Origin: Methanomicrobia archaeon JdFR-19
Lineage (GTDB): Archaea; Halobacteriota; Methanosarcinia; DSM-18856; Methermicoccaceae
Direction of reading: 5' to 3'
DNA length: 64,000 nucleotides
NCBI GenBank assembly: GCA_002010075.1
Contig: MTMG01000018.1
Span: 1 to 64,000, forward strand
Part shown: in pieces, positions 14,951 through 62,583 of the stretch
Layout: each line of letters begins with the position of its first letter
Numbering within the stretch: position 1 is the first letter of the stretch
Made by a program: the position numbers and the translations under genes
Notes under the pieces: generated by a model
Told to the model about the DNA's origin: nothing
Seen by the model: the letters and a program-made list of their open reading frames with translations, nothing else
Database searches by the model: none

Positions 14951-16441
14951 TCACAAGAATTTTATTCCTTCTGGAAGGTTACCCACAATTTCAACAAATC
15001 TTTCAGGCCAATTTTCTGGATTGAATCCTTTCTGAGCAAGAAATGCACTCGCCCACCTCTCAAGTCCAACACCGGAACATCCACTCCACAACATATCTCC
15101 GGACTGAGACTTAACAGAGAATCCTTTAGGATATTTATCGCCATTCACACTGACATTTTGAAACTCAAGCCATCCGTTCTTGTATGGAAGATATGCCTCA
15201 TAGTCTGTTGTACCGACTCTTATATCCTCACTCAAACCAGCTAGTCCTTCCTGTGCCATGAACCACGGAGTTACCCACGCTTTTCTCCATTCCAATTCAA
15301 GTATATCCTCAAAGATGTGATGATATCTTTCATGCAGTTTGTTTGCCTCTTCTACCACCTGCTCTGGATACCCAATCCAGACTATTTCGATTCGGTGGAA
15401 CTCATCCACCCTTTCTATACCATGAATACCACCACTCTCATACCTATGTGATGTGCCTGACCTGTCAAACACTCTTATTGGCAATGAAGAATCTGCAATC
15501 GTCTCACCCTGTAAAAATACCCAAAATGGAGGACACTGGGCATAACACATACCCCCAATGGGTGGTTCAATTTTCTCTTTTATCAAGTCCACAGGAACGT
15601 CAAGCGTAACTTTGTAATAATCTATCACATCTTCCCAAAAATGTGGGTCTCTCGATTTTGGTGTGCATACATAATATATCTCAGGATACACACCCTTCGC
15701 ATGTCCTGAACGCTTCCAAACATCCCATGGAACAAGCTTTGGAAATACCATCTCAACATAGCCAAGGGGCTCGAGAATCTCATTTATCACGATTGTCTCA
15801 AAAGCTCTGAAGATTTTTGTTATCTGTGGCCCATATATCCACTGTCCTCTGCTTGCCCCATGTTTTATCCATCTCATTTTTAGGAGTTCTTGTGTTGGGT
15901 CTTTATTGAAATGAATTTTTTTCTTCCCACTCTGCCATATAAGTTCCCAGTTCTCTGCCTTCCCACCATACTCCTCCGCCTTCTTTTTCTCATCTATCAG
16001 TCGGACTATCCTATCTGGTATCTTTTTCTCAACATCTTGTTCAGTGAGGGTGAGCCATACCATAAAATAACCATCTTTCCACTCTGACTTCACTATAAAT
16101 GGGAGTTTTATGCTTATAGGTACATTTGATTCTGTTTTTATCCAGTATTCATTAAATTCAATCCCTCTTATACCTATTCTATGTCTTCCAAGAACTTTTG
16201 AGAGGTGTTTCCTCAATCTCAAAAACACATCATGCGCACGCAAATAGTTATCCGTCCTTACTTTTATATTCAGCTTGTCTCCCTCTACAGAGTAGGTCAT
16301 CTCTTTCACGCCTCTGCCATCAGGAATACCTCTTGACAAAATCTCACTCACCCCCACACTGAAGAACTCCTCCACAGCATCTTGAACCTCTGTTAGCTCC
16401 TTGCTTGCTTTAAAGAACCCATCCGCATAGAATTCAATCAT
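14951..16441 (-). CDS. serS: Seryl-tRNA synthetase, type 2 (methanogenic, zinc-dependent)
   Basis: A 496-residue class II synthetase charging tRNA-Ser, of the rare archaeal form found mainly in methanogens. Its N-terminal tRNA-binding domain is unrelated to the long coiled-coil of ordinary SerRS, and the catalytic core has a zinc site. Visible parts include GGMCYAQCPPFWVFLQGE with a zinc-ligand cysteine, FDRSGTSHRYESGGIHGIERVDEFHRIE (motif 2 region) and SGCSGVGLERWASAFLAQKG (motif 3). The ATG at 16441 has GAGGTG seven bases upstream and overlaps the pcc1 stop by eight bases. Confidence 0.93.
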   Translation of the reverse strand: MIEFYADGFFKASKELTEVQDAVEEFFSVGVSEILSRGIPDGRGVKEMTYSVEGDKLNIKVRTDNYLRAHDVFLRLRKHLSKVLGRHRIGIRGIEFNEYWIKTESNVPISIKLPFIVKSEWKDGYFMVWLTLTEQDVEKKIPDRIVRLIDEKKKAEEYGGKAENWELIWQSGKKKIHFNKDPTQELLKMRWIKHGASRGQWIYGPQITKIFRAFETIVINEILEPLGYVEMVFPKLVPWDVWKRSGHAKGVYPEIYYVCTPKSRDPHFWEDVIDYYKVTLDVPVDLIKEKIEPPIGGMCYAQCPPFWVFLQGETIADSSLPIRVFDRSGTSHRYESGGIHGIERVDEFHRIEIVWIGYPEQVVEEANKLHERYHHIFEDILELEWRKAWVTPWFMAQEGLAGLSEDIRVGTTDYEAYLPYKNGWLEFQNVSVNGDKYPKGFSVKSQSGDMLWSGCSGVGLERWASAFLAQKGFNPENWPERFVEIVGNLPEGIKFL

Positions 16442-16646
16442 GAACAACACCTCTCACTCTGAGAGCAACCTGAAGATTTGCAAGATAATCATCCAATGTG
16501 TTAAGCAGACTGCCAACCCCCTTACATTCTATGTACACAACGTTGATGAATGTTTTTATGTTGTCAGTATTATCTGGCTCAAGAGAACGTATCACCTCCC
16601 CAATCTCATGTTCAAATTCGAGTCTTGCACGGGCAATCTACTCCAT
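16434..16646 (-). CDS. pcc1: KEOPS complex subunit Pcc1 (in-frame TAG at codon 3)
   Basis: A 70-residue protein recognisable as Pcc1 from ARLEFEHEIGEVIRSLEPDN followed by a beta strand and the helix GSLLNTLDDYLANLQVA. Pcc1 is the dimerizing subunit of KEOPS, which makes t6A37 in ANN-decoding tRNAs. The frame reads ATG GAG TAG ATT GCC: the TAG at 16640-16638 is codon 3, and no standard start codon exists between it and the conserved core. If TAG is sense the gene is intact and normal in length. The ATG is 30 bases from a TATA element (leaderless), and the end overlaps serS. Confidence 0.82.
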
Positions 16647-16671
16647 CAACCTTCACCCATAACCTCAAAAC

Positions 16672-16680
16672 GATATAAAT
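16672..16680. promoter_or_regulatory. Shared TATA element between pcc1 and ilvD
   Basis: GATATAAAT reads as a TATA box in both directions. It is about 30 bases from the pcc1 ATG (minus) and 39-54 bases from the candidate ilvD starts (plus). Confidence 0.45.
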
Positions 16681-16729
16681 GTTGGGCAATATTAGAAAAC
16701 CACATAAACATTGAGTGCGAGTCGCTATC

Positions 16730-18394
16730 ATGAAATCAGATAATGTGAAGATGGGGGTTGAAAGAACACCACACAGAATGTTATTCCGGGCTTGCGGTCT
16801 TGTGGATGAGGAATTTGAAAGACCACTGGTTGGAATCGTAAATTCATGGAATGAACTTGTCCCGGGGCACATACACCTCGACAAACTTTCTGATGCAGTG
16901 AAGGCAGGAGTTAGAATGGGGGGTGGAACTCCATTAGAATTCAACACCATTGGAATATGTGATGGAATTGCAATGAACCATGAAGGGATGAGATACTCTC
17001 TTCCAAGCAGAGAAGTGATAAGAGACTCGATAGAGATTGTTGCAAGAGCATACCAGTTCGATGCTCTTGTGTTCATATGTTCATGTGATAAAATAGTTCC
17101 CGGACATTTGATGGCTATGGGTATCCTCAATGTTCCATCGATTGTTGTTACTGGTGGACCAATGCTACCTGGGTATGTAGGAGATACATACAGGGACCTT
17201 GTGCATGATGGATTCGAGGCAGTTGGTCTTTACCAAGAGAACAAGATATCGCTCGAAGAATTGAAAGAACTGGAATGCTATTCATGTGCTGGGGCGGGCT
17301 CATGCTCTGGAATGTTCACAGCAAACACAATGGCATGTCTTACAGAAGCCCTTGGATTGAGTCTCCCTGGATGTGCTACTGCCCATGCTGTTGATGCGAA
17401 AAAAGTTCACATCGCCAAGAAGTCTGGACTCATGGTGATGGAACTTCTGAGAAGAGGAATTACACCAAGAATGATCGCAACAAATGAAGCATTCGAGAAT
17501 GCTATAAGAGTTGACCTTGCTATAGGCGGCAGTACGAACACTGTTTTACATCTTCCGGCAATAGCTCACGATTTTGGGATTGAGTTACCCATAGAAAAAT
17601 TCGACGAACTCTCAAGAACAACCCCACATCTTGTCAGTCTCAGACCTGCCGGTGATAACTTCATGCTCGATTTTGAGAGGGCTGGAGGAGTACATGCCCT
17701 GATGAATAGGTTGAAACCCCTACTGAACACGCAGGCACTTACAGTAAGTGGCAGAACACTCGAGGATAATCTGAGGGAACATGTGGTTGTAAATCCACTG
17801 AAGAGCAAGGAAGTGATTGCGACACTCGATAATCCCATTCATCGAGAAGGGGGAATCGCAATCCTCAAAGGAAATTTAGCAGAAAATGGGGCAGTTGTCA
17901 AGCAAAGTGCAGTTGACCCAAAAATGATGGTACATGAAGGTTCTGCTCTCCCATTTAATTCTGAGGAGGATGCATATAAGGCTATTTTGGATGGTGAGGT
18001 GGGAAGAGGTGATGTTGTTGTTATCAGATACGAGGGGCCAAAGGGTGGACCGGGCATGAGGGAAATGCTATCCCCAACATCTGCAATAGCAGGAATGGGA
18101 CTGTCAGACTCTGTTGCTCTCATAACAGATGGCAGGTTCTCCGGAGGCACAAGAGGCCCTTGTGTCGGACATGTGAGTCCTGAGGCATGGGAAGGGGGAA
18201 CGATAGCATTTGTAGAGGAAGGAGACATCGTCCGTGTCGATATCCCATCTCGCTCCCTCACACTCAAAGTTTCTGAGGATGAAATTGCCGAAAGGAAGAA
18301 GAAATGGAGACGACCTGACAAAAAGTTGAGTGGTCTGCTTGCCAGATATTCTAAGAGTGTGAGATCTGCATCAGAAGGGGCGATTCTGGAGTAA
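16730..18394 (+). CDS. ilvD: Dihydroxy-acid dehydratase
   Basis: Iron-sulfur dehydratase of valine/isoleucine/leucine synthesis, about 554 residues. The family cysteines are in [12 protein letters not shown] and [21 protein letters not shown]. It also has [30 protein letters not shown], and the C-terminal [21 protein letters not shown] loop. The ATG at 16730 gives the usual N-terminus; a GTG at 16715 is closer to the TATA element. It is followed 15 bases later by the pmbA-like gene. Confidence 0.95.
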
Positions 18395-18409
18395 AATTGG
18401 AGTGGGAGA

Positions 18410-19747
18410 ATGGAAGATAAGGTGAGAGATACGCTTGACAGGGAAATCAACAAATTTAGGGGTGATGAGCTTGAACTTTATGGGATCATATCAAGAGGTC
18501 TCTCGCTCACTGTAAAAAAGGGAAGAATATCTGAACTCACAAGCTTCGAGGGGTTGGGTGTTGGGGCAAGAGTGTTTGAGCGAGGTGCAATGGGCTATGC
18601 CAGTACAAATGACCTCAATGAGATTGGTAATTGTGTATTGAAGGCATCAAAACATGCACGATTTGGTGAGAAAATTAAAGGATGGAATGGCTTGCCACCG
18701 AAAACATATGAAAAATCAGATGAAATACATAATATAGGGCGAATAAAGGTCTATGATAAAAAATTTGAAGAAATTGATAAAAGAGAGATTGTTGAACTTG
18801 GAAAAAATCTTATATCAGACTTTGAGGAAAGAAATGTATTACTTAGTTCTGGAAATCTGAGTTTTTCAATGTCTCTTGAGATGATTTACAACACCTCTGG
18901 GCTGAGACATGAAGAAGCATCAACAGAGATCTATGTAGGTGTGGAAGGGGTTGCAAAAGATGGTGGGAGTGTGGCATCAGCACAAGATTTTGAGTGTTCT
19001 CGCAAGTTTATGACGTCGCTTGACCCACTCTCCGAAAGAGTATGCAAAGTTGCTCTTGATTCATTGAACCCCATGAAAGTGGAGAAAGTTGAAGGAGTTG
19101 GATTGTTGAGTCCTCTTGCGCTCTATGAACTCCTTTCCTACACACTCATTCCCTCACTGAGTCTTGACATGGTTATCAAAGGACGTTCTGCGCTATCCAA
19201 CAAACTCGGCTCAACCATATCCTCAGAGTGCCTCACATTCGTAGATGATGGCACGTTGGACTGGGCGATGGGGAGCGGTATGAGGGATGGTGAGGGTACA
19301 CCTTCCAACCGAAAGTGTGTGATAGACAAAGGGGTATTGAAAACATTTCTCTCGGACTGTCACACAAGTGCAAAGGTTGAGGGAGAAAGTACTGGAAACT
19401 GCGTAAGACATAATTATCAATCACCGCCAGACATAGGGGTTAGAAACCTTGTTATCACGAGTAATGATAAAATCTCGATAGAAGAAGTTGACAGGGGTGT
19501 CCTTGTTACGAGTTTTATAGGCTCGCACACTTCCAACCCAGTGTCTGGAGATTTTTCTCTTGAAGTGAGGGGAGGATACATCATCGACAGAGGAGATATC
19601 ACAGGTGTGGCGAGGAAACTCATTGTGTTCGGAAATGTCTATGAGATTTTGAAGTCTGTTATTGGCTCGATGAATGATACGAGAATGGTTGGAGAAGTTA
19701 TAACACCAACTCTCGCATTTGATAACATGGTGTTTTTGGGAGAATAA
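18410..19747 (+). CDS. TldD/PmbA-family protein, TldE (PmbA)-like subunit
   Basis: A 445-residue member of the TldD/PmbA (U62) family, whose heterodimers degrade unfolded or modified peptides. I see family patterns such as SFEGLGVGARVF, a central dimerization region and the C-terminal GDFSLEVRGGYIIDRGDITGVARKLI. The HExxxH zinc motif of TldD is absent, so this is the non-catalytic TldE/PmbA-type partner. A TldD partner is not in the window. It lies close behind ilvD. Confidence 0.85.
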   Translation: MEDKVRDTLDREINKFRGDELELYGIISRGLSLTVKKGRISELTSFEGLGVGARVFERGAMGYASTNDLNEIGNCVLKASKHARFGEKIKGWNGLPPKTYEKSDEIHNIGRIKVYDKKFEEIDKREIVELGKNLISDFEERNVLLSSGNLSFSMSLEMIYNTSGLRHEEASTEIYVGVEGVAKDGGSVASAQDFECSRKFMTSLDPLSERVCKVALDSLNPMKVEKVEGVGLLSPLALYELLSYTLIPSLSLDMVIKGRSALSNKLGSTISSECLTFVDDGTLDWAMGSGMRDGEGTPSNRKCVIDKGVLKTFLSDCHTSAKVEGESTGNCVRHNYQSPPDIGVRNLVITSNDKISIEEVDRGVLVTSFIGSHTSNPVSGDFSLEVRGGYIIDRGDITGVARKLIVFGNVYEILKSVIGSMNDTRMVGEVITPTLAFDNMVFLGE

Positions 19748-19789
19748 GAGATAAAATTTAAAATAGCATTTGGTTAAAGTGAGTTTGTT

Positions 19790-19862: not shown

Positions 19863-19864
19863 TC

Positions 19865-20275
19865 ATGTGTGATGAAGAACAGTACATTGCCCACTACATA
19901 AAGTCCCATTTCCAAGGGAAAGTTGTAGAGGTTGGGGTAGGTAAAAGAACTGGAGTCATGGATATGCTGAGAGAGATGGGAATGGAAGTGATTGGAGTTG
20001 ATGTGAATCCCATCCAAGGAGTTGTTTTCGATGACATATATAGACCAAACATTTCAATCTATTAGGGGGCTGAACTGGTTTATTCGATCAGACCACCCCC
20101 AGACATATGGTATAGCATAGCTCGAGTGTCTGCTACTGTGGGAGCTGAGCTAATAATTCGTCCTTTTTCGTTGGAGTACGTGGATCTCAGTGAATTTTAC
20201 GGAAAATAGAACGTTGTGAATTACGGGAGAGCAAGATTCATCCATTTTAAAGAGTCCAAAGTCTCAGGTATCTAA
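19865..20275 (+). CDS. UPF0146-family protein with two in-frame TAG codons
   Basis: A 136-residue Rossmann-like protein of unknown function. It has a methyltransferase-like VVEVGVGKRTGVMDML loop, GVDVNP and DDIYRPN. The frame then continues through TAG (20063-20065, codon 67) into GAELVYSIRPPPDIWYSIA and AELIIRPFSLEYVDL, both typical of the family. It passes a second TAG (20207-20209, codon 115) before TAA at 20273. Treating TAG as stop would cut the protein in the middle of its fold. It overlaps the convergent mscS by 12 bases. Confidence 0.82.
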
Positions 20276-28075: not shown

Positions 28076-28894
28076 TTAGAGTCTCCTATACTCCTTTCTA
28101 AGCCTCTAAATATCTCCATCTATATCTATACTATACAAATCATAAGTTCCCAGACCTGCTTTATTCGCTATCTTGAGATAAAGAACTTCTTGAGGGTCTA
28201 TCCCCATGAGATATGCTCCAACCGCATCACAAGCAACTGGATTGTTGGATACGATAACAACTCTCGAAGGTACTGGATCACATGCAAGTTCATGAGTCTG
28301 CCCACCCACAACCCCCTCCACCACACACAACTTTGGCGTGAATGCTTTGTTCAGTTCTGCTATCTTCTCATGTATATCAGTATGCATGAAATTCTTAGGA
28401 ACTATCCCACCCATCATGTTCTTCATTGAAAGAGTTGCGACCGCAAGTGAGTGTACTTTCAGTTTTGCACATGATATTATTGTGTCATGTGTGAGGTAAC
28501 TTTTTGCAATCCTTATACCCCTCAACAGCTCTCCAATTTCAACATCAACATGTTCCTCTGAATTAAGGTCTACCAGCCGTATTCCTGTATTTTCAAGTGC
28601 ATCGACAAGACCGATCTTTTTGAACGTTTCCATCGTGTTATAGGTTGATATCCCCCCCTCACCAACCGTTATATCTTCTGGTTTGAATCCAGATTCCATG
28701 AGATAATCACACACAGCCCTAACAGACCATGGGTTGGTTGTTACACCACTTTCGGGAGGGTCATCACTAACATAATTCGGTTTTACAAGAATCTTTGAAG
28801 ACAAGTTAAAACAGCTGACTCCCGGTAGTCTCTCAAGAGCTTTCATGGTACCCTCATACGGGTCATCAGACTCTGCAACCACAACCTTGTACAT
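28076..28894 (-). CDS. DUF362-family protein (TAG near the C-terminus)
   Basis: A DUF362 protein with the family's ILVKPNYVSDDPPESGVTTNPW, VGEGG and AKLKVHSLAVATLSMKNMMGGIVP motifs; function unknown. The frame meets TAG at 28108-28106 (codon 263) and continues nine codons to TAA at 28078-28076. That TAA touches the GTG of the ATP-grasp gene and lies just behind GGAG, the natural end of a coupled gene. With TAG as sense the protein is 272 residues, otherwise 262. Confidence 0.78.
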
Positions 28895-28924
28895 GATTGT
28901 CATCTTATTTCACAGTGTATTTAA

Positions 28925-31182: not shown

Positions 31183-32211
31183 TTAAATCGAGAATCTTAG
31201 AAGGGCGGCAACCCCTCCTATATGCAAAAGTCTCTTTCCAGCTTCAAACTCAGATGAAAGTATAACAACTTCTCCTCCACTCCTCTCAACATCTGTAAGT
31301 AGGGAGTCTATGTCGGTACCTTTATCCCTTTCTTCCCTCAAGATTTCATCCACCACGAGTAAAGTCTCAACAGCACCATATTCCACAGCTTTTTTTACTT
31401 CATCAAAGCCATAAGCTACGGCCTCTCCTTTGGATATCCTTCTGAGAACCTCGTCTATAAGTTTTGTCTCTTTTGTCAGTCTGAAATCTTCGAAAACTCT
31501 CTGAAGTACGCCCCTCCTTATAACTTCTATAAAACCTGGCATTCCACACGATGAAGAGCCTTCGACCATGATTTTCTTTGACATTTCTGCATCCTTTAGA
31601 TGCTCCAAGAAATCCTTTTTCGTAAAGCCTGGTCCTGCAACAATCACAACATCAACGTCTTGGGTACAATCCTTTAATGCTCTATAGACTTCATTAAAAA
31701 ACTCTTCTCGTTCATCTCTCTCCCCCCTCTTCCCATAACTTCTTGTGATGGTGCAGATCTCCTCAACCCCAAATTCCATCACTGCTCCAATAGATGCATA
31801 ACCCTCTTCAATCGTTAGAATTATGACAGAAGGTCTTTTTGAAGATTTTTCTGCTTCTTTGAGCCTCTCCAACTGGTCTTTCTTCCATTCCTTTATTATA
31901 GATACCTCGGTCATTTTCTCTATGTTTATGGTATGGTGAGAGCCCACATCCACACCATGCTCTATCACTCCCGACACTCTTAATCTGTTTGAAAATCTGT
32001 GAAATTCTACCTTTTCAACCCTTATACCCAATCTTACAGCTTTCTTTTCAGGTTTGTCTGGTCTAATTTTGTCTGATGCAACTTCAACAGCCCTTTTTGT
32101 TGTTGCAAAAATGAGGTCTCCTCTCTCGATTATATATTTGAGATGCCATAAATCGTCGAGAGTTTCGGGAATTACACTAACCTCTCCATCTTTCATTCTT
32201 GTAATCTTCAT
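31183..32211 (-). CDS. pelA: Pelota, mRNA surveillance / ribosome rescue factor
   Basis: A 342-residue archaeal Pelota (Dom34). The N-terminal Sm-like domain includes EVSVIPETLDDLWHLKYIIERGDLIFA and LGIRVEKVEFHRFSNRLRVSGVI. The central domain has VIVAGPGFTKKDFLEHL, and the C-terminal eRF1-like domain has AVAYGFDEVKKAVEYGAVETLLVVDE. It lacks the GGQ of release factors and, with aEF1A/ABCE1, splits stalled ribosomes. It ends the ftsY cluster; the ATG at 32211 is six bases after ftsY. Confidence 0.93.
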   Translation of the reverse strand: MKITRMKDGEVSVIPETLDDLWHLKYIIERGDLIFATTKRAVEVASDKIRPDKPEKKAVRLGIRVEKVEFHRFSNRLRVSGVIEHGVDVGSHHTINIEKMTEVSIIKEWKKDQLERLKEAEKSSKRPSVIILTIEEGYASIGAVMEFGVEEICTITRSYGKRGERDEREEFFNEVYRALKDCTQDVDVVIVAGPGFTKKDFLEHLKDAEMSKKIMVEGSSSCGMPGFIEVIRRGVLQRVFEDFRLTKETKLIDEVLRRISKGEAVAYGFDEVKKAVEYGAVETLLVVDEILREERDKGTDIDSLLTDVERSGGEVVILSSEFEAGKRLLHIGGVAALLRFSI

Positions 32212-32216
32212 AATTC

Positions 32217-33149
32217 TCACTCAAATATTCTCTCTATTAGCCAGTCTGGGTCAAATTTGACAAGGTCATCGTATCCCTGTCCAACACCAAAAAACAAAAT
32301 AGGCTTTTTTGTCTCGTATGAGATCGATATGGCAGCCCCACCCTTTGTATCTGCATCAAGTTTTGTTAGAATGCTTCCATCAAAATTCGTAATCGAGAGA
32401 AACCTTTTGGCTCTTTCAACTGCATCATTTCCCGCTGTTGCATCGTCTACAAATATTGTGAGGTCGGGTGGTGCTACTTTACATATCTTTCTGAGCTGTT
32501 CCATGAGATTCACATTCGTGTGCATCCTACCTGCGGTGTCTGAAAGGACGGCATCTATGTTCCTTGCCTTTGCATATGCAAGTGCATCATACAACACAGC
32601 TGCAGGGTCCCCCCCTGGCCTGTGTTTTATCACCTTTACATTCAACCTTTTAGCATGCTCATCAAGTTGCTGAATTGCACCCGCCCTGTATGTATCTCCG
32701 GCAGCAAGAACAACCGAATAACCCTTTTTCATGAGATAGTTCGCCATCTTTGCAATCGTTGTTGTCTTTCCAGTTCCGTTCACACCAACAAACAGCAAAT
32801 GAACCGGTCGATCTTTTGTATCAAAGAGTTTATCAAAATCACTTCTCCCAAAGTCATCCCCACACACAAGTATATCTCTTATCGCATCTTTGAGAGAGTT
32901 CTCCACAATCTTTTCAACATCCTCTCCTATCTTCCTCCTCTTTCCCACAAGTTTTTGTCTCACCCGCTCACAAATAGCCTCGGCAACATCAACAGCAACA
33001 TCACTCTCAAGGAGTCCAATCTAAAGCTCAAACAACAACCCATCCAATTCCTTTTCAGAGAGTATAAGCTCACCATCGAGAAGAGCCTTTGCCTTTTCAG
33101 TAAGACTTGCAGATTGTTTTTTTAACTTCTCCTTGAGAAAACCAAACAT
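32217..33149 (-). CDS. ftsY: Signal recognition particle receptor FtsY (in-frame TAG at codon 43)
   Basis: The SRP receptor GTPase that docks ribosome-SRP complexes at the membrane. From ATG 33149 the frame reads MFGFLKEKLKK and continues through ELDGLLFEL to a TAG (33023-33021). It then goes straight into IGLLESDVAVDVAEAI, the conserved FtsY N domain. The G domain has GVNGTGKTTT, DTAGRMHTN and TKLDADTKGGAA. Total 310 residues. Stopping at TAG would leave 42 residues; starting after it would remove most of the essential N domain. The start lies five bases behind pfdA. Confidence 0.93.
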
Positions 33150-34917: not shown

Positions 34918-34927
34918 ATCATACCTC

Positions 34928-35503
34928 CTATTTCATTGCCAATATCTTCGATTGGGTGTGTTTCCGTGGGAATATTTCTTCCGCCTTATTTCTTAACATT
35001 ATCCTAAGTTCCTCTTCATAATCAGCCTTATGCATTTCCTTACTCTCCCTCTCCTCAATTTCAAAGACCATATCAACTATCCTGTTCAAAGTCTTTCTAC
35101 CATAACCAAGCAACGGCCTTACATACTCTACTCCATGTCTGTCCTCGAGACTTTGAGTCTCGGAAAGAGAGAGCATTGGAACCCTATCATCTCTTCTCGT
35201 ACCATCTGCCACAATAGGAAACATGGTCGCAACTCTTTCAAGTGCCTGTCGATGCAAATGATTTATAGCTCTTCTTGGATTTCCGTCTGCGATACTCATC
35301 TCCACCGCTTCATCTAATATCTCTCTATCCATTTTAATCACTCTGTGGGGCAGTCCTATGACATTGGAAGCTTTCTCAGCCTCTTTCCAACCATCTCCTA
35401 CGCCAAACGTTATCGTTACAAGCTCAACATCAAACATCTATGAAAGCATAAGTGATGCGAGTGCGCTATCTTTACCTCCACTAAACAGTACGCATACAGT
35501 CAT
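34928..35503 (-). CDS. PP-loop superfamily ATPase (in-frame TAG at codon 22)
   Basis: A 191-residue adenylating enzyme of the asparagine-synthase/PP-loop type, regularly found between L39e and PDCD5 genes in archaea; substrate unknown. From ATG 35503 the frame starts [20 protein letters not shown], the ATP pyrophosphatase loop. It crosses TAG (35440-35438) and continues [17 protein letters not shown], the expected second strand. Without readthrough the ATP loop is separated from the rest of the enzyme. The pattern [15 protein letters not shown] lies downstream. Confidence 0.85.
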
Positions 35504-37836: not shown

Positions 37837-38514
37837 TTGTGCAGAGAATGTGAAAGAAAGATTTCGCTGTATTTTGACAAGAAGCGTATGTTATCGATAC
37901 AGCATAAAGTTGCAAATATGGTTAGACTGGACAATTCTCCGGAAAAAATAAAGAAAGTCGGTGGTGTGGACTGTGCGTATGTAGGTGATTTGGTGGTTAG
38001 TGTGTGCATTATTTTGGACGTAGCCAGCTGGAAAGTTTTGGATACCTCGGTGGTCGTTGATGTGTGTGACTTTCCATACATCCCTTCGTTTCTCTCCTTT
38101 AGAGAGGGGCCAGCTTCTATCAGAGCGATAATGCATCTAAAAGAGAGAGCGGATCTGTTGCTTGTGAATGGTGTTGGTATTGCACATCCCAAAGGTGCAG
38201 GGTTTGCCTCACACATTGGAGTTGCTCTAGACATACCCACGATAGGTATAACAAAGAAGCCATTGTGCGGGGAAATTATAGAAACGGAGGGAACTGAAAG
38301 ACCCATCTTGTATGAGGAAAAAGTTGTGGGATATGCCATGAGAAACATTATAGTCACTCCAGGACATAACGTGAAAACAAATGATGTGCCTCGCCTCGTA
38401 TTAGGATTGATGAAAGAACATAAACTTCCAGAGCCTCTTTATCTATCTCATAAGCTTGCATCTGAATTGAAAGACATCATAAGAATTTTATATAGCAAAG
38501 ATTAGAGGGGTTGA
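37837..38514 (+). CDS. nfi: Endonuclease V (TAG three codons before TGA)
   Basis: Repairs deaminated bases by cutting near inosine. The 222-225-residue protein has catalytic motifs VGGVDCAYVGD, FPYIPSFLSFREGPA, LLVNGVGIAHPKGAGFASHIGV and IGITKKPLCG. It starts with TTG after GAGGG. The frame meets TAG at 38503-38505 and then AGG GGT TGA, so the natural end is either TAG or TGA at 38512-38514. The annotation uses TGA because TAG looks like sense elsewhere. Confidence 0.88.
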
Positions 38515-38522: not shown

Positions 38523-38924
38523 ATGGTTAAGGTACTGTTGATAGAAGATGACAAATCCTTTATCGAACTGTTCAGAGAGTTTCTTGATATGAAATACCCT
38601 CATGTTGAATTACGCCATGCAGGCAGTGTAAATGAAGGGATAAAGTTATACAAAGAGCTGTACAAAAATAAAAAGCCAGATATTGTTTTAATTGACTACA
38701 ATATTCCCGGTGGGGGTGGACTCGAGCTTCTTACGAAGATTAAAGAGATTGACCCTGATGCAAAGACATACATCCTCACAGCTCATGCAACACAAGAACA
38801 GACTAAAAAGAGTATAGAAGCAGGGGCTATCAAGGTGATAGAAAAGCAATACGAATTCTCGAAAACAGTTGATAGTGTTGTCAGATATTTGGGGGATGAG
38901 TCATGCAAATCAGAGAGCGAATGA
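38523..38924 (+). CDS. Response regulator, receiver domain only
   Basis: A 133-residue CheY-like receiver. Acidic pair EDD near residues 8-10, phospho-acceptor Asp in VLIDYNIPGGGGLELL, Thr in YILTAHA and Lys in VIEKQ. There is no output domain, so it acts by protein contact or as a phospho-relay. Its TGA overlaps the ATG of the histidine kinase (ATGA), so the two form a pair. Confidence 0.88.
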   Translation: MVKVLLIEDDKSFIELFREFLDMKYPHVELRHAGSVNEGIKLYKELYKNKKPDIVLIDYNIPGGGGLELLTKIKEIDPDAKTYILTAHATQEQTKKSIEAGAIKVIEKQYEFSKTVDSVVRYLGDESCKSESE

Positions 38925-40984
38925 GAGATTCGAAGTTCGTAGTTATTGTGATAAAAGGAGAGGAGATAATTGTTGATAGTGATGGAGAGATAACAGTCCA
39001 TGATCGCTCTTCTCTCATGTCCGCTCTTCCAGAGTTATTTGAAGGTAAGATAGGCGAGAGGAAAATTTTTGGAAAAGAATGGAAACAGATATGCGATGAT
39101 TTGATAGTTGGGTATTCAGGACTGATGAAACTACCACTCCCAGTTTTTCAGTCAATCCTTTCAGACATAGAAGAGGGGTTCTTCATAATAGACCTTTCGA
39201 CCGGCAATTAGTTGCTGAATCAACATATAGAAAAAACACTCAATATCAGAAGTGAGGAAGTAAACAAGAATCCAGAGATATTATTGGGCAAGGTAAACCG
39301 GGAAGACAGGGAAAAACTTCAGAAAGTTGTTCAGGATATCAGGGAAGGCAAGATGACCAAACTATATCATGAAGCGAAGCTGGTTGACGGAGATATAACA
39401 AAAGACATCGAGATAATATTGATTCCTATCGGAACTGACCGACCATTTGCAATCATAGGGATTGCAAGAGATATCACACATAAAAAGGAATGGGAAAAAG
39501 AGATAATAGAAAAATATGAAGGTTGGGAGATTGCATTCGATTCTGTTCCCGACCCAATAACAATACTCGATAAAAACTTTACAATCCTCCAAGCAAACAA
39601 ATCTGTATTTGACGTTTTACCAGATGTCAATGTTGTGGGAATGAAATGTTACGAGGTTTTCCACAATGCGGATAGCCCTCCAGATTTCTGTCCATGCATT
39701 AAAACCTTAGAAGATGGACAGACGCATTCTGTCGAAATGTATGAAGAGAGGCTTGGGGGCATATTCAACGTTATCACATCCCCCATAATAAAAGAAGGCA
39801 AGATAGTGGGAGCAGTACATATTCTGCACAATGTAAGTGAGCAGAAGGAGATGAATAGAAAACTCAGAGAGTCCGAGACAAGATACAGATATGTTTTCGA
39901 AAGATTGCCTCTCGCTTTTGTTGTATGGGACACAGAGACAAAGGTGATTGAATGGAACAAGACTGCTGAAAAATTGTTTGGCTGGAAAAGGGATGAAGTA
40001 GTTGGAAAAAGTTTTTTTGACCTCATAATACCTGAGGATGAAGAGGAGCTCGTCCAGAATGTTGTGGAGAACCTCCTCAAAGGAATGCAGAATATCTGTG
40101 AAAACAAAAATCTGACGAAAGATGGAAGAACAATCGTATGCAGGTGGCATAACACACCCATTTTCGGAGAGGATGGGAGAGTTATTTATGTACTTTCGAT
40201 GGGAGAAGACGTGACAGATAAGATAAGACTCGAAGAGAGGAAAAAAGAACTTGAGGAGCAATTGACAGAGGCGGAAAAGCTTGCTGCAATAGGAGAGTTT
40301 GCTGCTGGTGTGGCTCACGAGGTGAATAACCCTCTAACAGCAATCATAAACTATGCCGAACTTCTTCTTGATGATGCAGAGAAAGAAGAAGAGAAGGAAT
40401 ACTTGGATGGGATAATCAAAGAAGGGAAGAGAATCAGAGACATAGTCAGAAGACTCTTGTCTTTCTCAAGAAAAGAAAAACCAAAGCTGGAGAAGATTCA
40501 TCTTGATGAGGTTGTGGAGGAGACATTGAAACTCATGAAGTACGAACTCGGTAAGAGAAAAATATGTGTTGAAAAAGAATACAGAGCTATGCCATTTATA
40601 TATGCAGATAAGAACATGATGAAACAGGTTTTTCTCAACCTTTTCACAAATTCGATTCATGCCCTTGATAAAAAACAAAGTTCTGAAAAACTCATAAAAA
40701 TAGCAATGGATACAACAAAGGAAAAGGAATATCTAAGAATAACGTTTGAAGACAACGGAATCGGTATAAAGAAAGAACATTTGAATAGGATTTTCGACCC
40801 ATTCTTCACAACAAAACGTATGGGAACGGGTCTTGGACTGTCTCTTGTGCATGGAATTGTGAAATCACATGGAGGAGTCATTAGGGTTGAGAGTGAGGAA
40901 GGTGTTTACACAAGATTCAAAATACTACTCCCTATTGTGCCTCCATTCGAAACTCGGGAGAATGTTTATAAATTCATAGTTTGA
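38921..40984 (+). CDS. PAS-domain sensor histidine kinase (in-frame TAG at codon 97)
   Basis: Read through TAG at 39209-39211 this is one 687-residue kinase; read as stop it becomes two pieces. The piece before ends EEGFFIIDLSTGN, and the piece after begins LLNQHIEKTLNIRSEE, the two halves of one PAS domain. Further PAS domains follow around residues 200-320 and 325-440. Then come the phospho-His region AAGVAHEVNNPLTAI (His near 466) and the ATPase boxes NLFTNSIHAL, DNGIGI and GTGLGLSLV. No membrane segment is evident, so it senses cytoplasmic signals. Confidence 0.88.
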
Positions 40985-44319: not shown

Positions 44320-45186
44320 GTGCACGAACTGGCATCTCTTTACAAACAATTAAGTCCCATCGACTTCAGGATACTTGTTGGAATAGAGAACGAAATGAGA
44401 AGGCATAAGTGGGTACCTATTGAAAACCTCCAGATATACACAGGAAGCAGTATAGAGCGTTTAAGAAAGCGACTCGAATTTCTCAGAGGCATGAAGATAG
44501 TTCTATACACGAAAACACCATACGAGGGTTATCAACTCTACTACCGGGGATACGACCTCCTGGCTCTGCACACATTTGTAAAGAGAGGGACACTCGATGC
44601 CGTTGGGGGGCAGATTGGGTTTGGAAAAGAGTCCGATGTCTTTGTTGGACTTAAAAATGAAAACAGAGTTGTGATAAAGCTACATAGAGCAGGCATGACA
44701 TTCAAAAAGATAAAGAGAGACAGAAGATACCTTGCGGACAAAGAACACTTTTCTTGGGTGTATGCATCAAGACTTGCAGCACAACATGAATTTAAGGCTC
44801 TCAAGATTCTCTATCCTGAGGTTAGTGTACCAGAGCCAATAGATCAGAATAGGCATGCAATAGTTATGGGATTGTGTGAAGGTGTGACTTTGGTTGACTG
44901 CGTACTCAAAGACCCCGAATTCTTTTTTGATGAGATTATTGAGAATACAAAAAAAACATACGAACTCGGAGTTGTCCATGGAGATCTGAGTGAATACAAC
45001 ATACTGGTTTCCCCAGATGGTATTACCATCATAGACTGGCCCCAATGGGTTGGAAGAGAGGAAATAAATGCAGACGAGCTTCTCCTCCATGATCTTTCGA
45101 TGATATGTAAATATTTTAAAAAGAAGTACTCTATAAAAAAAGACCCTGTTTCTCTTTTGAACTATTTCAAAAGTTAGAGAGGATGA
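44320..45186 (+). CDS. rio2: Rio2 serine/threonine kinase (TAG three codons before TGA)
   Basis: A 285-288-residue atypical kinase used in maturation of the 30S subunit. N-terminal winged helix (LSPIDFRILVGIENEMRRHKWV), P-loop region IGFGKESDVFVG, ATP lysine in RVVIKLHRAG, catalytic VVHGDLSEYNILV and metal-binding IIDWPQW. It starts with GTG overlapping the PHP stop. The frame meets TAG at 45175-45177, followed by AGA GGA TGA. It overlaps the convergent M50 gene by about 20 bases. Confidence 0.92.
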
Positions 45187-52161: not shown

Positions 52162-53111
52162 GATAACACGCTCGAGAGAAGTCTCCCGATTATCTCGTCC
52201 TGAACAATGCCTTTTCTCTCCGCTTCAAAACTCAAAATAATACGGTGTCGCAGAATTGGATAAGCCATCTTTTCTATATCCTCCGAAGAGACATAAGTTC
52301 TGCCATGCATGAGAGCTCTTGCCTTGGCTGTAAGTATCATTCCAATTGATGCTCTCGGAGAAGCACCATATGCTATTTCAGGTACCCCTTTTCTTGTTGA
52401 AATTACGAGTCTTATTACCTTATCCTTAAGCTCATCTGATATCGGCACCTCTCTCACGAGTTGTTGAAGGGCGAGTAATTCTTCCTTCGAAACAACCTTG
52501 TTAACAGATGGAGGTTTTCCCATTGCGTACTTGCCAATGATTCCCATCTCCTCCTCTGGAGTTGGATAGTCCATTAGGACTTTCAAAAGGAATCTATCTA
52601 ACTGAGCTTCTGGAAGTGGGAATGTCCCCTCCATCTCTATCGGATTCTGAGTAGCAAGCACAAAGAATGGTCTATCGAGCTTGAACGTCTGTTTTCCTAT
52701 ACTCACTTGTCTCTCCTGCATTGCTTCGAGCAACGCACTCTGGGTTTTCGGAGATGCTCTGTTGATTTCATCAGCAAGTACGATGTTTGCGAATATTGGT
52801 CCCTCCTCAAATCTGAACTCCTTTCTGCCATCTACTTCTTCTATGACATATGTTCCGGTAATATCCGACGGCATAAGGTCTGGTGTACATTGAATTCTTG
52901 AGAATTTTAAATCGAGGACTTTTGAAAGGGTTGATATCGTGAGAGTCTTCCCAAGACCAGGATTTCCCTCAACAAGGACATGTCCTTCACAAAGAATAGC
53001 TATGATTATCTGTTCAAGTGCCTCTTTCTGCCCAACTATGACCTTCTCAATCTCTTCAAACAGATTTCTGAATATCTTTCCTGACCTTTCATACACTTCC
53101 TCCAAATTCAT
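52158..53111 (-). CDS. MoxR-family AAA+ ATPase
   Basis: A 317-residue AAA+ ATPase. Walker A EGNPGLGKT, Walker B VLADEINRA, sensor FVLATQNPIEMEGTFPLPEAQLDRF and the C-terminal lid with YGASPRASIGMILTAKA. MoxR proteins act as chaperones that load metals or assemble complexes with VWA partners. The ATG overlaps the preceding stop (ATGA). Confidence 0.93.
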   Translation of the reverse strand: MNLEEVYERSGKIFRNLFEEIEKVIVGQKEALEQIIIAILCEGHVLVEGNPGLGKTLTISTLSKVLDLKFSRIQCTPDLMPSDITGTYVIEEVDGRKEFRFEEGPIFANIVLADEINRASPKTQSALLEAMQERQVSIGKQTFKLDRPFFVLATQNPIEMEGTFPLPEAQLDRFLLKVLMDYPTPEEEMGIIGKYAMGKPPSVNKVVSKEELLALQQLVREVPISDELKDKVIRLVISTRKGVPEIAYGASPRASIGMILTAKARALMHGRTYVSSEDIEKMAYPILRHRIILSFEAERKGIVQDEIIGRLLSSVLS

Positions 53112-57295: not shown

Positions 57296-57324
57296 TAGAT
57301 GTTGATGTTGATAGTGGTGTGGGA

Positions 57325-57783: not shown

Positions 57784-58894
57784 GGCTGAAAAAATAAGAG
57801 ATGCAATGATGTCAATGGATGTCGATGCTCTCGTTATGGTGGGCGTGCCATCAAAGGATGCAAACATATACTATTCGACAGAATTTCTTTCCCACGATAC
57901 TGTATTTTACTTATGTACACACTCGTCAGAAAAACTGGCAGTACCAAATATGGAGCTTGAAAGAGCCATAAAAGAATCGAGAGTTGAAGATGTTGTATCC
58001 TTTTCAAAATCATCGTCTGTTTTATCCGAACTTGTCAAAGGACTGAATGAAGTTTGCATTCCGAGAGAGTTTCCCGTCTATCTTGCTGATAAACTAAGGA
58101 ATGAAGTTAATGTAAAGGTTGTGAAGAATCCCGTCCTCGCATCAAGAGAATGTAAAGGCGATAAGGAAATTGTCATGATGAAAGAGACCACGAAAATAGC
58201 AGAGGGAGCAATATCCCGTGCGATAGATATGATACACGAAAGTAAACCAACTGATGAGGGGCTTGTATTTGAAGGTACTCTTTTAACATCTGAATTTGTT
58301 AGAACTGAGATCGAAACCCATCTGCTCAAGAAAGGGTGTTTTTCAGACGGAACAATAGTCGCAGGTGGTAGAATATCTTCAATCCCCCACTGCACAGGAA
58401 GGGGAAGATTGTTTCCAGACGAGCCAATCATCATCGATGTATTCCCAATGAACAAGGATAACAGGTACTACTCAGACATCACAAGAAGTGTTGTCAAGTT
58501 ATGGAAAGGTGGAAAAAAGGTTGAGAGGATTGTCTCGATGTATAATGCTGTTTTGGATGCACAACATACTGCCCTATCGCTTGTCAAAGAAGGTGTAAAG
58601 TGTGAGGAGGTGTATGAATGTGTGAAGAGAAGATTAATCGAAAAGGGTTTTGATGCTCCTGAAAAGGGCTCGGAAGGATTTATCCATTCTGCTGGACATG
58701 GTGTTGGACTTGAAGTCCATGAGTCGCCTTCTATCGGGAAAAACAAAGATGTCCTGAAAGATGGCATGGTCATCACAATTGAGCCGGGTTTGTATTACCG
58801 TGATGTTGGGGGGGTGAGGATGGAAGACATCGTGGTTGTGAGAGAGAATGGATACGAACGGCTCTCAACACTATCAACACCTTTCCTCCTGTAA
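57776..58894 (+). CDS. M24-family aminopeptidase (Xaa-Pro type)
   Basis: A 372-residue two-metal peptidase with an N-terminal creatinase-like domain (about 1-130). The pita-bread domain has metal ligands in IIIDVFPMNKDNRYYSDITRS, HSAGHGVGLEVHESP, ITIEPGLYY and VRMEDIVVV. Most like Xaa-Pro aminopeptidases/dipeptidases. ATG 57776 overlaps the cobZ-like stop; the C-terminus overlaps the convergent trmY by 21 bases. Confidence 0.88.
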   Translation: MDKAEKIRDAMMSMDVDALVMVGVPSKDANIYYSTEFLSHDTVFYLCTHSSEKLAVPNMELERAIKESRVEDVVSFSKSSSVLSELVKGLNEVCIPREFPVYLADKLRNEVNVKVVKNPVLASRECKGDKEIVMMKETTKIAEGAISRAIDMIHESKPTDEGLVFEGTLLTSEFVRTEIETHLLKKGCFSDGTIVAGGRISSIPHCTGRGRLFPDEPIIIDVFPMNKDNRYYSDITRSVVKLWKGGKKVERIVSMYNAVLDAQHTALSLVKEGVKCEEVYECVKRRLIEKGFDAPEKGSEGFIHSAGHGVGLEVHESPSIGKNKDVLKDGMVITIEPGLYYRDVGGVRMEDIVVVRENGYERLSTLSTPFLL

Positions 58895-59485
58895 CCTATC
58901 GAGCTCATTCAATACTATCACTATACACTGGTCTGCATGAAGAGACAAAGGACTTACTGATACACATTCGGTACATTTCTTTCTAACAAGGTTCTTTTGA
59001 GGACTTGTGAGACCTAAATGGTCACCAAGTACAAAACTGATATCTCCTTTCAGTTCAACATTCCTAATATCCTTCCCACCCTCATCTAAAAGAAATATTT
59101 CCCCCTTTTCTGATAAATCATCAAGGATTTCATCCAAAGTTAGTCTGGATACAAATACGCCAGGTGTTGATGTTATCCAGCTTCTTGATACTTTCAGTGA
59201 AAGTGCTTTTTTTATGAGTGAAGCTGTACTTCTTTCATCAGGACTCAAGTACTTCATATGGTCTCCCTTGAACAACAATGTTTTTGGTGGATCTGGCTCA
59301 CCCAGCATGTGAATGTAGAGTGATATGTTATTCCTGATACCATGAGACAACAGAAGGGAGGAGGTTACACATCTGCATGCAACATCCATCCTCCCCGCAC
59401 CTGGAAGGTCATTTAGTGAAAAATCACCGCTCGTTCGCATGCTATTTCCGACCAATAAGAAATTACAACGCCATACGCACATCAA
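58874..59485 (-). CDS. trmY: tRNA (pseudouridine(54)-N1)-methyltransferase
   Basis: A 203-residue SPOUT-class enzyme making m1Psi at tRNA position 54. The pattern TSGDFSLNDLPGAGRMDVACRCV, NISLYIHMLGEPDPPKTLLFKGDHMKYLSPDERSTASLI and the knot region DISFVLGDHLGLT are diagnostic. The first residues (WRCNFLLVGN) are the expected first strand, so the start is 59485 or the next codon at 59482. Confidence 0.92.
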   Translation of the reverse strand: MMCVWRCNFLLVGNSMRTSGDFSLNDLPGAGRMDVACRCVTSSLLLSHGIRNNISLYIHMLGEPDPPKTLLFKGDHMKYLSPDERSTASLIKKALSLKVSRSWITSTPGVFVSRLTLDEILDDLSEKGEIFLLDEGGKDIRNVELKGDISFVLGDHLGLTSPQKNLVRKKCTECVSVSPLSLHADQCIVIVLNELDRLQEERC

Positions 59486-59521
59486 AAAGATATTTCAATA
59501 TGTAGTAGATTATACTTTCTC

Positions 59522-59659
59522 ATGCCAAAATCCAAGAGAAGAGAACTTGAGAGGAAAGGAGAGAACAAACTCAAAGGACTTGAGAAAAAGCTGATAGAAG
59601 AGAGTTTGGAAGGGATAGATGAAGAATTAGAGGAAATGGAGGAGGAAGAGATAATTTGA
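59522..59659 (+). CDS. Small charged protein, unknown
   Basis: A 45-residue open frame beginning MPKSKRRELERKGENKLKG and turning strongly acidic (LEEMEEEEII) at the C-terminus; helical throughout. No family recognised. It is probably real because its stop overlaps the start of the ThiS/SAMP-like gene (TTGA), and its own sequence supplies that gene's GGAGGAGG ribosome-binding site. Confidence 0.6.
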   Translation: MPKSKRRELERKGENKLKGLEKKLIEESLEGIDEELEEMEEEEII

Positions 59660-59862
59660 AGACAAGGTTGAAAGTGATAATGCCAGATGGTGAGACATTT
59701 GAATTAAAAACAGATGATTTTTCAAGCTATGAGGAGGTTCTTTAGAGTTTAAAGATAAACCCGGAGACCCATCTGATAATCAAAAATGGTAAAGCTGTTC
59801 CCACAGATGCAAAACCTACGAGTGGTGAGTTGAAAATATTGCGGGTTGTTTCTGGAGGTTAA
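59656..59862 (+). CDS. ThiS/MoaD/SAMP-like ubiquitin-fold protein with C-terminal Gly-Gly (in-frame TAG at codon 30)
   Basis: A 68-residue beta-grasp protein: LKVIMPDGETFELKTDDFSSYEEVL, then TAG (59743-59745). It continues SLKINPETHLIIKNGKAVP, ELKILRVVSGG and TAA. The ending in Gly-Gly is the thiocarboxylate/conjugation tail of sulfur carriers and SAMP modifiers. TAG falls in the helix between strands 2 and 3, so the fold is complete only if it is read through. TTG start with GGAGGAGG upstream. Confidence 0.82.
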
Positions 59863-59875
59863 TTCTTTGGTTTCC

Positions 59876-60568
59876 TCATTTTTTTATGAACTCTATTATC
59901 CCCTCTATCATTCTCCTCCCGTCCTCAGACCCTAACAAACTATTGCATGCTCTTTCTGGATGAGGCATGAGTCCCATTACATTCTTACTCTCATTCAGTA
60001 TACCGGCAATGTTCTCTACCGAACCATTTGGATTTGCTGATGCGTTCGGCTCTCCATTCTCATCCACATATCTAAGGGCGATAAGATTTGATGCATTCAA
60101 CCTTTCCAATCCCTCTTTGGTGTGGTAATATCTTCCCTCTTTATGAGCAATAGGTATGCGGATAAGTTCACCCACATCGAATTTGGATGTAAAAGGAGAC
60201 TCGTTCTCCTCAACTCTCAATGTACACCACTTGCATATGAACTTTGGATATTCGTTAATCATTAAAGCGCCCTCGAGGAGGAGTGATTCTGTGAGAACTT
60301 GAAAACCATTACATATTCCCAATATGGGCACGCCATCTTCAGCCATATCCCTCACAACATCCATTACAGGAGTTCTTGCAGCAATAGCACCAGCTCTTAG
60401 ATAATCTCCATACGAAAAACCACCCGGAATCACGACCGCATCACACATTCTCAGACTGCCAACATCCTTGTACCATATTATCTCTGCAGGACACCCCAAC
60501 TACTCAAACACAAATTTGACATCTCTATCACAATTTGTACCCCCAAAACTGATGACGCCCACCCTCAT
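59876..60568 (-). CDS. purQ: FGAM synthase glutaminase subunit PurQ (in-frame TAG at codon 23)
   Basis: The 230-residue glutaminase that supplies ammonia to PurL. From ATG 60568 the frame reads MRVGVISFGGTNCDRDV, crosses TAG at 60502-60500, and continues LGCPAEIIWYKDVGSL, the normal PurQ N-terminus. The nucleophile Cys is in ILGICNGFQVL and the His/Glu in MPHPERA. ATG overlaps the purS stop (ATGA). Beginning after the TAG would remove the first beta strand of the amidotransferase fold. Confidence 0.93.
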
Positions 60569-60816
60569 CCCTTCACCTCAAGTGTGTAGGAATAATCATG
60601 GATAATGGGATTTGATAACAATTTTCTGCACATCTCTTCAATCTTATTTTCTGCCTCTTCGTCATCCTCTGCTTCGAACAGAACATAATATTTTTTGGCA
60701 CTTGAAACCTCTTCAACTGAAAATCCAAGATTTCTAAGAGCTCTGGTTATCGTCATCCCTTCTGGGTCTCTCACACCTTTTTTCAACTTAATTGTAACAT
60801 CAGCCAAGTAACGCAT
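60565..60816 (-). CDS. purS: FGAM synthase subunit PurS
   Basis: An 83-residue small subunit bridging PurQ and PurL. RYLADVTIKLKKGVRDPEGMTITRALRNLGF and a C-terminal NPIIHDYSYTLEV are typical. ATG 60816 is preferred to a GTG at 60831 because PurS starts at this residue; GGTGGT lies upstream. It overlaps purQ by four bases. Confidence 0.92.
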   Translation of the reverse strand: MRYLADVTIKLKKGVRDPEGMTITRALRNLGFSVEEVSSAKKYYVLFEAEDDEEAENKIEEMCRKLLSNPIIHDYSYTLEVKG

Positions 60817-60874
60817 GAGTTCAGATACCACCTAAACAAATAAGTTTTTTTGTAATTGGATTAGAGTTGTTATC

Positions 60875-61888
60875 ATGGGAGTTGATTTGGGAGACTTATT
60901 TACGCCACATCAAATAAGGATGGACGAGTTATCAAAAAAAATTATAGCAATAGATGCCTACAACACCATTTATCAGTTTCTGAGCATTATAAGACAGAGG
61001 GATGGCACTCCTCTCATGGACTCAAGAGGAAGGATAACCTCTCATCTCTCTGGAGTACTCTACAGAACATCAAACTTCATGGAATATGGTATAAAGCCAG
61101 TTTATATATTCGATGGTGAACCACCCATCTTCAAAAAAGAGACAATTGAGGAGAGAGCAAGAAAAAGAGAGATGGCATATGAGCGGTGGATGGAAGCAAA
61201 AGAGCGGGGAGAGGAGACATTTGTGTATGCTCAAGCATCTGCAAAGGTGACTGATGAAATTGTGGAAGACGTAAAACATCTACTCGCCCTTATGGGAGTT
61301 CCGTACGTGATGGCACCTTCTGAAGGTGAGGCACAAGCTGCATATATGACGATAAAGGGAGATGCCCATTATGCAGCATCACAAGACTACGATTCACTTC
61401 TTTTCGGTGCAAAGAAAGCTATTAGAAATTTGGCAATAACTGGCAAGAGAAAACTCCCAAGAAAAAAAGTGTATGTTGAGGTAAAGCCAGAGGTAATTGA
61501 GCTGGAAAAAGAATTAAAACGACTTGAAATAACAAGAGAACAACTTATAGACATAGCAATACTTGTTGGAACTGACTATAATGAAGGAATAAAAGGTTTT
61601 GGTCCTAAAAAAGCCTATAACTTGATAAAGAAAGTGAGGAATTTGTATAAAGCTCTTGAAGAGATTGGATGTGAGGTCGAGAACGTCGATGAGATTAGAG
61701 AGTTTTTTATGCACCCACCAACAACCGATGATTATGCTCTCGAATGGAAGATACCTGAAAAAGATGGGATAATCGATTTTCTGTGTGGGGAAAGGGATTT
61801 CTCTGAAGAAAGGGTTGATGGAGCAGTTGAGAAGATGTTGATGGCACTCGAGAAGGATAAACAACAGACTCTCGACAGGTGGTTTTGA
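60875..61888 (+). CDS. fen: Flap endonuclease 1
   Basis: A 337-residue structure-specific nuclease removing Okazaki flaps. Active-site acidic residues lie in IAIDAYNTIYQFL, YIFDGEPP, APSEGEAQAAYM and ASQDYDSLLFG; then comes the H2TH motif LVGTDYNEGIKGFGPKKAY. The C-terminal PIP box QQTLDRWF binds PCNA. Its TGA overlaps the ATG of the cinA-like gene (TGATG). Confidence 0.96.
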   Translation: MGVDLGDLFTPHQIRMDELSKKIIAIDAYNTIYQFLSIIRQRDGTPLMDSRGRITSHLSGVLYRTSNFMEYGIKPVYIFDGEPPIFKKETIEERARKREMAYERWMEAKERGEETFVYAQASAKVTDEIVEDVKHLLALMGVPYVMAPSEGEAQAAYMTIKGDAHYAASQDYDSLLFGAKKAIRNLAITGKRKLPRKKVYVEVKPEVIELEKELKRLEITREQLIDIAILVGTDYNEGIKGFGPKKAYNLIKKVRNLYKALEEIGCEVENVDEIREFFMHPPTTDDYALEWKIPEKDGIIDFLCGERDFSEERVDGAVEKMLMALEKDKQQTLDRWF

Positions 61889-62583
61889 TGAAGACTTAGA
61901 TTATCTCGATAGGTGATGAGTTATTAAGAGGGGATACTCTCAACACAAATGCATCTTGGATTGCAAAAAAACTCTCTGAAAGAGGTATGGACATCGGTAA
62001 GATGCTGGTAATTCCAGATGATGTTGATGAGATATCTTCTTCGATAAGAGAATCAGACGAGGAGATAATAATCATCACGGGTGGGCTTGGCCCAACGCCA
62101 GATGATATGACAAGAGAAGGAGTTGCTGATGCTTTTGGTGATGTCTTGGTCATGAGAGAGGACCTTCTCGATGAGATGAGAGAGGTGCATGAGGTAACTA
62201 AAGACGCAGAAGTTATGGCTCAGCTACCCTCAAAGGCAGTGCCACTCAAAAATCCGGTTGGTTCAGCACCTGGATTTGTTATAGATGATAGAAACAAAGT
62301 GGTCTTTGTTCTTCCAGGAGTCCCAGAAGAGATGAGAGCAATGTTCGGTGATGTTTTGAGACACCTTGAGAAATTTGGTGAAAAAAAACATTATGTTGCG
62401 TACATTGAGACAACAAAACCAGAGGCGTCGATAGCATCAGAACTAAACGAATTCGTTAGAAGATTTCCATCTGTGAAGCTTGGTTCTTACCCGAAGGGGG
62501 AGTAGGTGTATATAAGGTTATCATCTCGAGATAAGAGCGAGTTGGAGAAAGCGGTAGAATGGCTCAAGAAACAAATAGAGTGA
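61888..62583 (+). CDS. CinA/MoaB-like molybdopterin-binding-fold protein with two in-frame TAG codons
   Basis: A 231-residue protein of the CinA N-terminal (MoCF) family. The frame reads ATG AAG ACT TAG ATT ATC: codon 4 is TAG (61897-61899), directly followed by IISIGDELLRGDTLNTNASWIAKKL. ITGGLGPTPDDMTREGVADAF and VLPGVPEEMRAMF are family hallmarks. A second TAG (62503-62505, codon 206) lies inside LGSYPKGE-TAG-VYIRLSSRDKSELE, again family-like, before TGA at 62581. The start overlaps fen (TGATG). Function of archaeal members is unclear. Confidence 0.87.

Follow-up and report, generated by a model that had tools for sequence, protein, structure and literature searches.

Does TAG still act as a stop codon in the uncultured, methanogen-related archaeon whose DNA is presented here? 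The window, a stretch of 64,000 nucleotides (C5:1-64000) from a draft archaeal genome (G000) of 1.29 Mb in 27 contigs with an estimated completeness of 89.75%, holds a series of genes whose reading frames are interrupted by TAG, and a sequence-only reading of it proposed that TAG is a sense codon in this segment. All ten TAGs on which that proposal was built are present and in frame, as confirmed by inspection of the sequence and its open reading frames. Our analysis makes it very probable that TAG is a sense codon across the whole genome and is decoded as pyrrolysine (Pyl), which, judged from the genes encoded, is most likely the residue inserted at all TAG sites.

Results

TAG is a frequent interior codon across the genome

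The sequence read for TAG statistics comprised the window and sampled stretches, together 520 kb or about 40% of the genome, in which gene calling with TAG left open predicted 558 genes. An in-frame TAG occurs in 91 of these genes, about one gene in six, with 118 TAGs in total, and extrapolation by length suggests roughly 290 TAGs genome-wide, some mis-set starts included. As many as 76 of the 118 lie more than 20 codons from either gene end, and the coding score per codon is as high behind these interior TAGs (0.21) as ahead of them (0.20), with a mean of 0.22 for all genes. To compare the three stop codons, we set the number of interior sites with coding on both sides, where the codon is read as sense, against the number of gene ends at that codon under code 11. 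The result was 44/52 for TAG, 39/327 for TGA and 29/158 for TAA, the last two values representing the background from neighbouring genes that share one frame. Among control genomes, the TAG figure was 4/14 in a PylS-bearing member of the same class, 9/69 in a member of the class without PylS, and 1/36 and 4/38 in two pyl-bearing controls, Hydrothermarchaeum and a Bathyarchaeote, respectively. The proposal that UAG serves as a general sense codon, not confined to a few genes, is supported by the 91 genes and by the stop comparison.

A homolog-based scan placed 18 TAGs inside alignments, and the TAA or TGA codons within such alignments proved to be rRNA reading frames, alignment edges or weak matches. 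Opposite TAG, the homologs have a variety of residues (E, D, R, P, A, H, K, I and N), as expected if TAGs were acquired neutrally at tolerant sites. Essential genes are affected, as had been claimed: FtsY and PurQ in the window, and elsewhere leucyl-tRNA synthetase, GatA (codon 49), PurA, a YchF-type GTPase, Rad50 (three TAGs), exosome Rrp42 and CofH. TAG is also found inside Pus10, 3-dehydroquinate synthase II, B12-dependent ribonucleotide reductase and methanogenesis marker 2. No convincing case of a TAG-terminated gene was found in the 520 kb read directly; candidate TAG stops belong to frames opposite real genes or are followed by TAA or TGA within about 20 codons, and no conserved gene was found there that ends only at TAG with unrelated sequence behind it. 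The weak matches crossed by TGA or TAA include two clusters (L045:5667-5823 and L057:18885-18921), which are probably decayed or spurious reading frames.

Most comparable TAGs are conserved in a sister species

The nearest relative compared, G001, is a sister species within the same genus, represented by a separate assembly with 94-95% DNA identity to the window. TAG is kept at eight of the nine comparable coding sites of the window, the ninth being CAG; in the CinA-like gene, the TAG at codon 7 is conserved and codon 209 is CAG. To either side of the TAGs, most substitutions fall on third codon positions and most are synonymous. Behind the TAG of the histidine kinase gene, for example, 80 codons differ synonymously and 32 non-synonymously; the corresponding numbers in the PP-loop gene are 21 and 6. 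The histidine kinase frame is under purifying selection on both sides of its TAG. The assembly is a draft, so one might think of the TAGs as pseudogene lesions or as sequencing or assembly errors. However, the same TAGs in an independently assembled sister species, together with purifying selection on both sides, exclude sequencing error and gene decay, and, leaving aside rRNA frames and alignment edges, well-conserved genes are interrupted only by TAG, never by TAA or TGA. We give pseudogenization or assembly error practically no chance.

A complete pyrrolysine gene set and a single detected CUA tRNA

The sequence-only reading had pointed to a CTA tRNA, pylS and pylBCD as the genes to look for elsewhere, and all of them are present in the genome. 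Contig C6 carries, in order, tRNA-Pyl (52999-53069), pylSn and pylSc. The tRNA, which a degenerate pattern search did not reveal and which ARAGORN detected in the pylS neighbourhood, has a CUA anticodon, a 5-base D-loop and a 6-bp anticodon stem. The synthetase is split into two genes in different frames, with the stop of pylSn at L043:9366 and the start of pylSc at 9380, and both parts score above their profile cut-offs (pylSn, TIGR03912, 94.3 bits, cut-off 51; pylSc, TIGR02367, 298 bits, cut-off 178). The genes pylB (417.6 bits) and pylC (334.6 bits) are neighbours elsewhere on C6 and pylD (222.4 bits) lies on C18, all above curated cut-offs. The genome further encodes an MtmB with one in-frame TAG (C9:29153-30496, 750 bits). 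Two MtmB paralogs without TAG (C14:15182-16522 and C9:38669-39991) are possibly members with other substrates. Adjoining pylSc is a gene for a predicted secreted protein of 616 amino acids (L043:10240-12090, minus strand), among the most TAG-rich genes with four in-frame TAGs, in which a dockerin-like C-terminus and a phosphoesterase-like middle part can be discerned by eye.

A second CUA tRNA was not found among the tRNAs detected genome-wide by RF00005, a search that is not exhaustive for odd shapes, since RF00005 misses tRNA-Pyl even at E<=10. Inspection by eye assigned three intron-bearing tRNAs that ARAGORN missed or misread to Ser(UGA), Ser(CGA) and Tyr(GUA); a CUA anticodon is present in none of them. 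These results bear on the idea that TAG specifies a standard amino acid, such as Gln or Lys, through another suppressor tRNA or near-cognate decoding. One TAG does align with CAG in the sister species, and the homolog residues opposite TAG are mixed and mostly polar or charged. Nevertheless, no CUA tRNA was found other than tRNA-Pyl, whose dedicated synthetase adjoins it, and the genome also has the complete biosynthetic set and a TAG-containing MtmB, so that decoding as a standard amino acid appears very improbable.

The only release factor is altered in its stop-reading motif

The genome has a single full aRF1 (L139:1501-2715, equal to C4:108494-109708, minus strand), whose YxCxxxF motif reads YHCASEF, with Ala in place of the Asp after Cys. 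This Asp is found in all 29 other class members compared, in 15 of 15 motif readings from other Pyl archaea, and in the human and Halobacterium-type proteins; among the aRF1s examined, only the sister species shares the change to Ala. In eRF1 the YxCxxxF motif is involved in the recognition of stops, and UAG release can be the activity hit hardest when the motif or its surroundings are changed: F131A, Y125F and E55Q retain 7%, 34% and 35% of wild-type UAG release (PMC4698671). In the literature we found no data on the exact motif residue after Cys. Our hypothesis is that the Asp-to-Ala change weakens UAG reading. About 30 other positions of this aRF1 also differ from the class, however, so that the change could be drift. 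Another candidate, Gly57-to-Ser, was dropped because other archaea have Ser too. A protein encoded in the window at 31183-32220 (minus strand) matches aRF1 weakly, is likely Pelota and contains no TAG; a ribosome rescue factor of this kind may matter in a recoded genome.

The TAGs close to gene ends bear on whether UAG has ceased to terminate altogether. In the last 21 codons before TAA or TGA, 17 TAGs are observed and 8.7 expected, about a twofold excess which could mean partial termination at UAG. The statistics are limited by a draft genome of incomplete coverage, of which 40% was read directly, and start codons are uncertain, so that some TAGs among the first codons are not real. Pyrrolysine insertion and aRF1 termination may compete at every UAG and give short and long products, as proposed for Methanosarcina, which would be a variant of full sense decoding rather than its opposite. 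The excess resembles the arrangement of back-up stops that has been described where Pyl-tRNA competes with aRF1 (PMC9499178), and aRF1 retains the Tyr, Cys and Phe of YxCxxxF as well as an intact NIKS motif. On the other hand, much product would be lost from essential proteins that are encoded by single genes with an early TAG (FtsY codon 43, PurQ codon 23, GatA codon 49), clear cases of genes ending at TAG were not found, and the reading motif of aRF1 is uniquely changed. We regard such ambiguous decoding as a possible but less likely state of affairs. In the DUF362, endonuclease V and RIO2 genes, the TAG just before the stop resembles a former terminator for which a nearby TAA or TGA serves as back-up. 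Such near-stop TAGs are compatible both with a completed reassignment that left relics and with some residual termination.

TAG-bearing genes in the window

The claim that the family sequence continues past each TAG stands for most of the genes, since profiles span the TAGs of UPF0146, FtsY, the PP-loop protein, SAMP2, PurQ and the CinA-like protein; in the histidine kinase, the TAG precedes the recognised domains. The putative Pcc1 is a small protein of 70 amino acids (16434..16646, minus strand) with TAG at codon 3 (16638-16640), supported by its coding score; a Pfam search gave no match, and its identity as Pcc1 is plausible only from the look of the translation. The UPF0146 protein (19865..20275, plus strand) has TAGs at codons 67 (20063-20065) and 115 (20207-20209), both spanned by the PF03686 match (residues 7-127, E 4.2e-31) and by homolog alignment. 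In FtsY, the SRP receptor (32217..33149, minus strand; TIGR00064, 323.7 bits), TAG at codon 43 (33021-33023) falls within SRP54_N (21-86), and identity with a homolog is 56% across it. The PP-loop ATPase-like DUF7411 protein (34919..35503, minus strand; PF24167, 1-187; NF011155, 1-192) has TAGs at codons 22 (35438-35440) and 192 (34928-34930), both shared with the sister species. The PAS/histidine kinase (38921..40984, plus strand) carries TAG at codon 97 (39209-39211), conserved in the sister species, with HisKA, HATPase_c and PAS downstream.

The SAMP2/ThiS-like protein (59674..59862, plus strand) has TAG at codon 24 (59743-59745) within a PF21965 match (7-59, E 2.2e-10), and PurQ, FGAM synthase I (59876..60568, minus strand; TIGR01737, 313 bits, 1-226), has TAG at codon 23 (60500-60502), again conserved in the sister species. 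The CinA/FAD-synthase-like protein (61879..62583, plus strand; PF00994, PF24102) has TAGs at codons 7 (61897-61899) and 209 (62503-62505); its NCBIfam matches begin at residue 4, and FLAD1_M (173-233) spans codon 209.

That no gene ends clearly at TAG also holds, with the qualifier that a few genes have a TAG just before the real stop. Four further window TAGs are of this kind, lying 2-9 codons ahead of TAA or TGA: the second TAG of the PP-loop gene, and those of the DUF362 protein (28076..28903, minus strand; PF04015; codon 266, 28106-28108, 9 codons ahead of TAA), endonuclease V (37888..38514, plus strand; PF04493; codon 206, 38503-38505, 2 codons ahead of TGA) and the RIO2-type kinase (44320..45186, plus strand; PF01163, PF09202; codon 286, 45175-45177, 2 codons ahead of TGA), the last three likewise kept in the sister species. 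Two apparent further cases, at the beginning of the L18Ae and DUF2162 frames, were rejected because these TAGs lie upstream of the conserved domains and of the true start, in DUF2162 partly within tRNA-Thr.

The synthetase groups with bacterial sequences

In a tree of 88 PylSc sequences, which beyond this lineage includes only the 80 best matches and seven relatives, PylSc of this lineage groups on a long branch with Actinomycetota (support 99/89) and is separate from the Methanosarcinaceae-like family to which its class would assign it, and its identity with Methanosarcinaceae is 37-40%. A fused PylS of the Methanosarcinaceae type was considered and rejected, because the genes are split and PylSc groups with Actinomycetota. 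The order pylT-pylSn-pylSc is common to this lineage, Hydrothermarchaeum and an Actinomycete. Our reading is that the split cassette originated by horizontal transfer. Similarity of the split synthetases has been taken to favour a transfer out of archaea into bacteria (PMC9499178), so that the transfer could have gone either way. Useful contrast cases are Hydrothermarchaeum (L176) and the Bathyarchaeote (L197), which have a pylT-pylSn-pylSc cassette yet use TAG as an ordinary stop, in 20% and 21% of genes, respectively; the split cassette alone does not, therefore, change the code.

Discussion

We propose that in this archaeon PylB, PylC and PylD would make pyrrolysine, which the two-piece synthetase PylSc plus PylSn would load onto tRNA-Pyl (CUA), and that at in-frame UAG pyrrolysine would be inserted by ordinary elongation with no special signal, TAA and TGA serving as the stops. 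With UAG terminating hardly or no longer, mutation may have led to a build-up of TAGs at tolerant positions in many genes, and a gene that formerly ended at TAG would now run on to a TAA or TGA close behind. Termination at UAG is probably weak, and the Asp-to-Ala change in aRF1 may contribute to this. How this state arose can be stated only tentatively. One scenario, against which the odds still lie, is an independent code change in which a bacterial-like split cassette was gained by horizontal transfer and UAG was then made a true sense codon through the Asp-to-Ala change in the only release factor (human eRF1 position 128), leaving an aRF1 that reads UAG poorly or not at all. If so, this would to our knowledge be the first archaeon in which reassignment was accompanied by a release-factor change.

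About one gene in six is broken or truncated when genes are called with table 11, so that a standard-code annotation of this lineage would be wrong in essential genes. A cell whose leucyl-tRNA synthetase depends on pyrrolysine is hardly able to give up this amino acid again. The aRF1 substitution offers a direct and inexpensive test of how an archaeon ceases UAG termination, and the synthetase/tRNA-Pyl pair is a candidate for genetic-code engineering.

Genome-wide use of TAG for pyrrolysine, the 'Pyl code', has reportedly been described by Kivenson et al. (Science, 2025), with proteomics in some methanogens. The present lineage is like the Pyl code archaea in reading TAG as sense genome-wide, in its TAA and TGA stops and in its complete pyl set, but differs from them in its split, bacterial-like synthetase and its unique change in the aRF1 YxCxxxF motif. 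In 'Ca. Methanomethylophilus alvus', TAG stops amount to 1.6% and pyrrolysine is predicted beyond methyltransferases, conserved proteins included (Borrel 2014, PMC4153887); there, however, such proteins number 16, whereas 91 genes with TAG were counted here in 40% of the genome, and the synthetase of 'Ca. M. alvus' is without PylSn. The PylSn plus PylSc class has been described in archaeon JdFR-19, like the present genome a near relative of Methanosarcinaceae, and in Ca. Hydrothermarchaeum profundi, with split genes close to bacterial ones (PMC9499178). Hydrothermarchaeum shares the split pylSn/pylSc and the gene order with this lineage, but TAG is a normal stop there, with one interior case. 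Methanosarcina-type use, found in the same class, has in common an MtmB with in-frame TAG; it differs in its fused PylS, in pyl genes that usually form one cluster, and in keeping TAG as a rare stop (4.2% in G003). A genome-wide Pyl code is thus already known in kind. To this the present lineage adds a synthetase of another class, a large number of TAGs in essential genes, and an altered release factor through which the mechanism can be tested.

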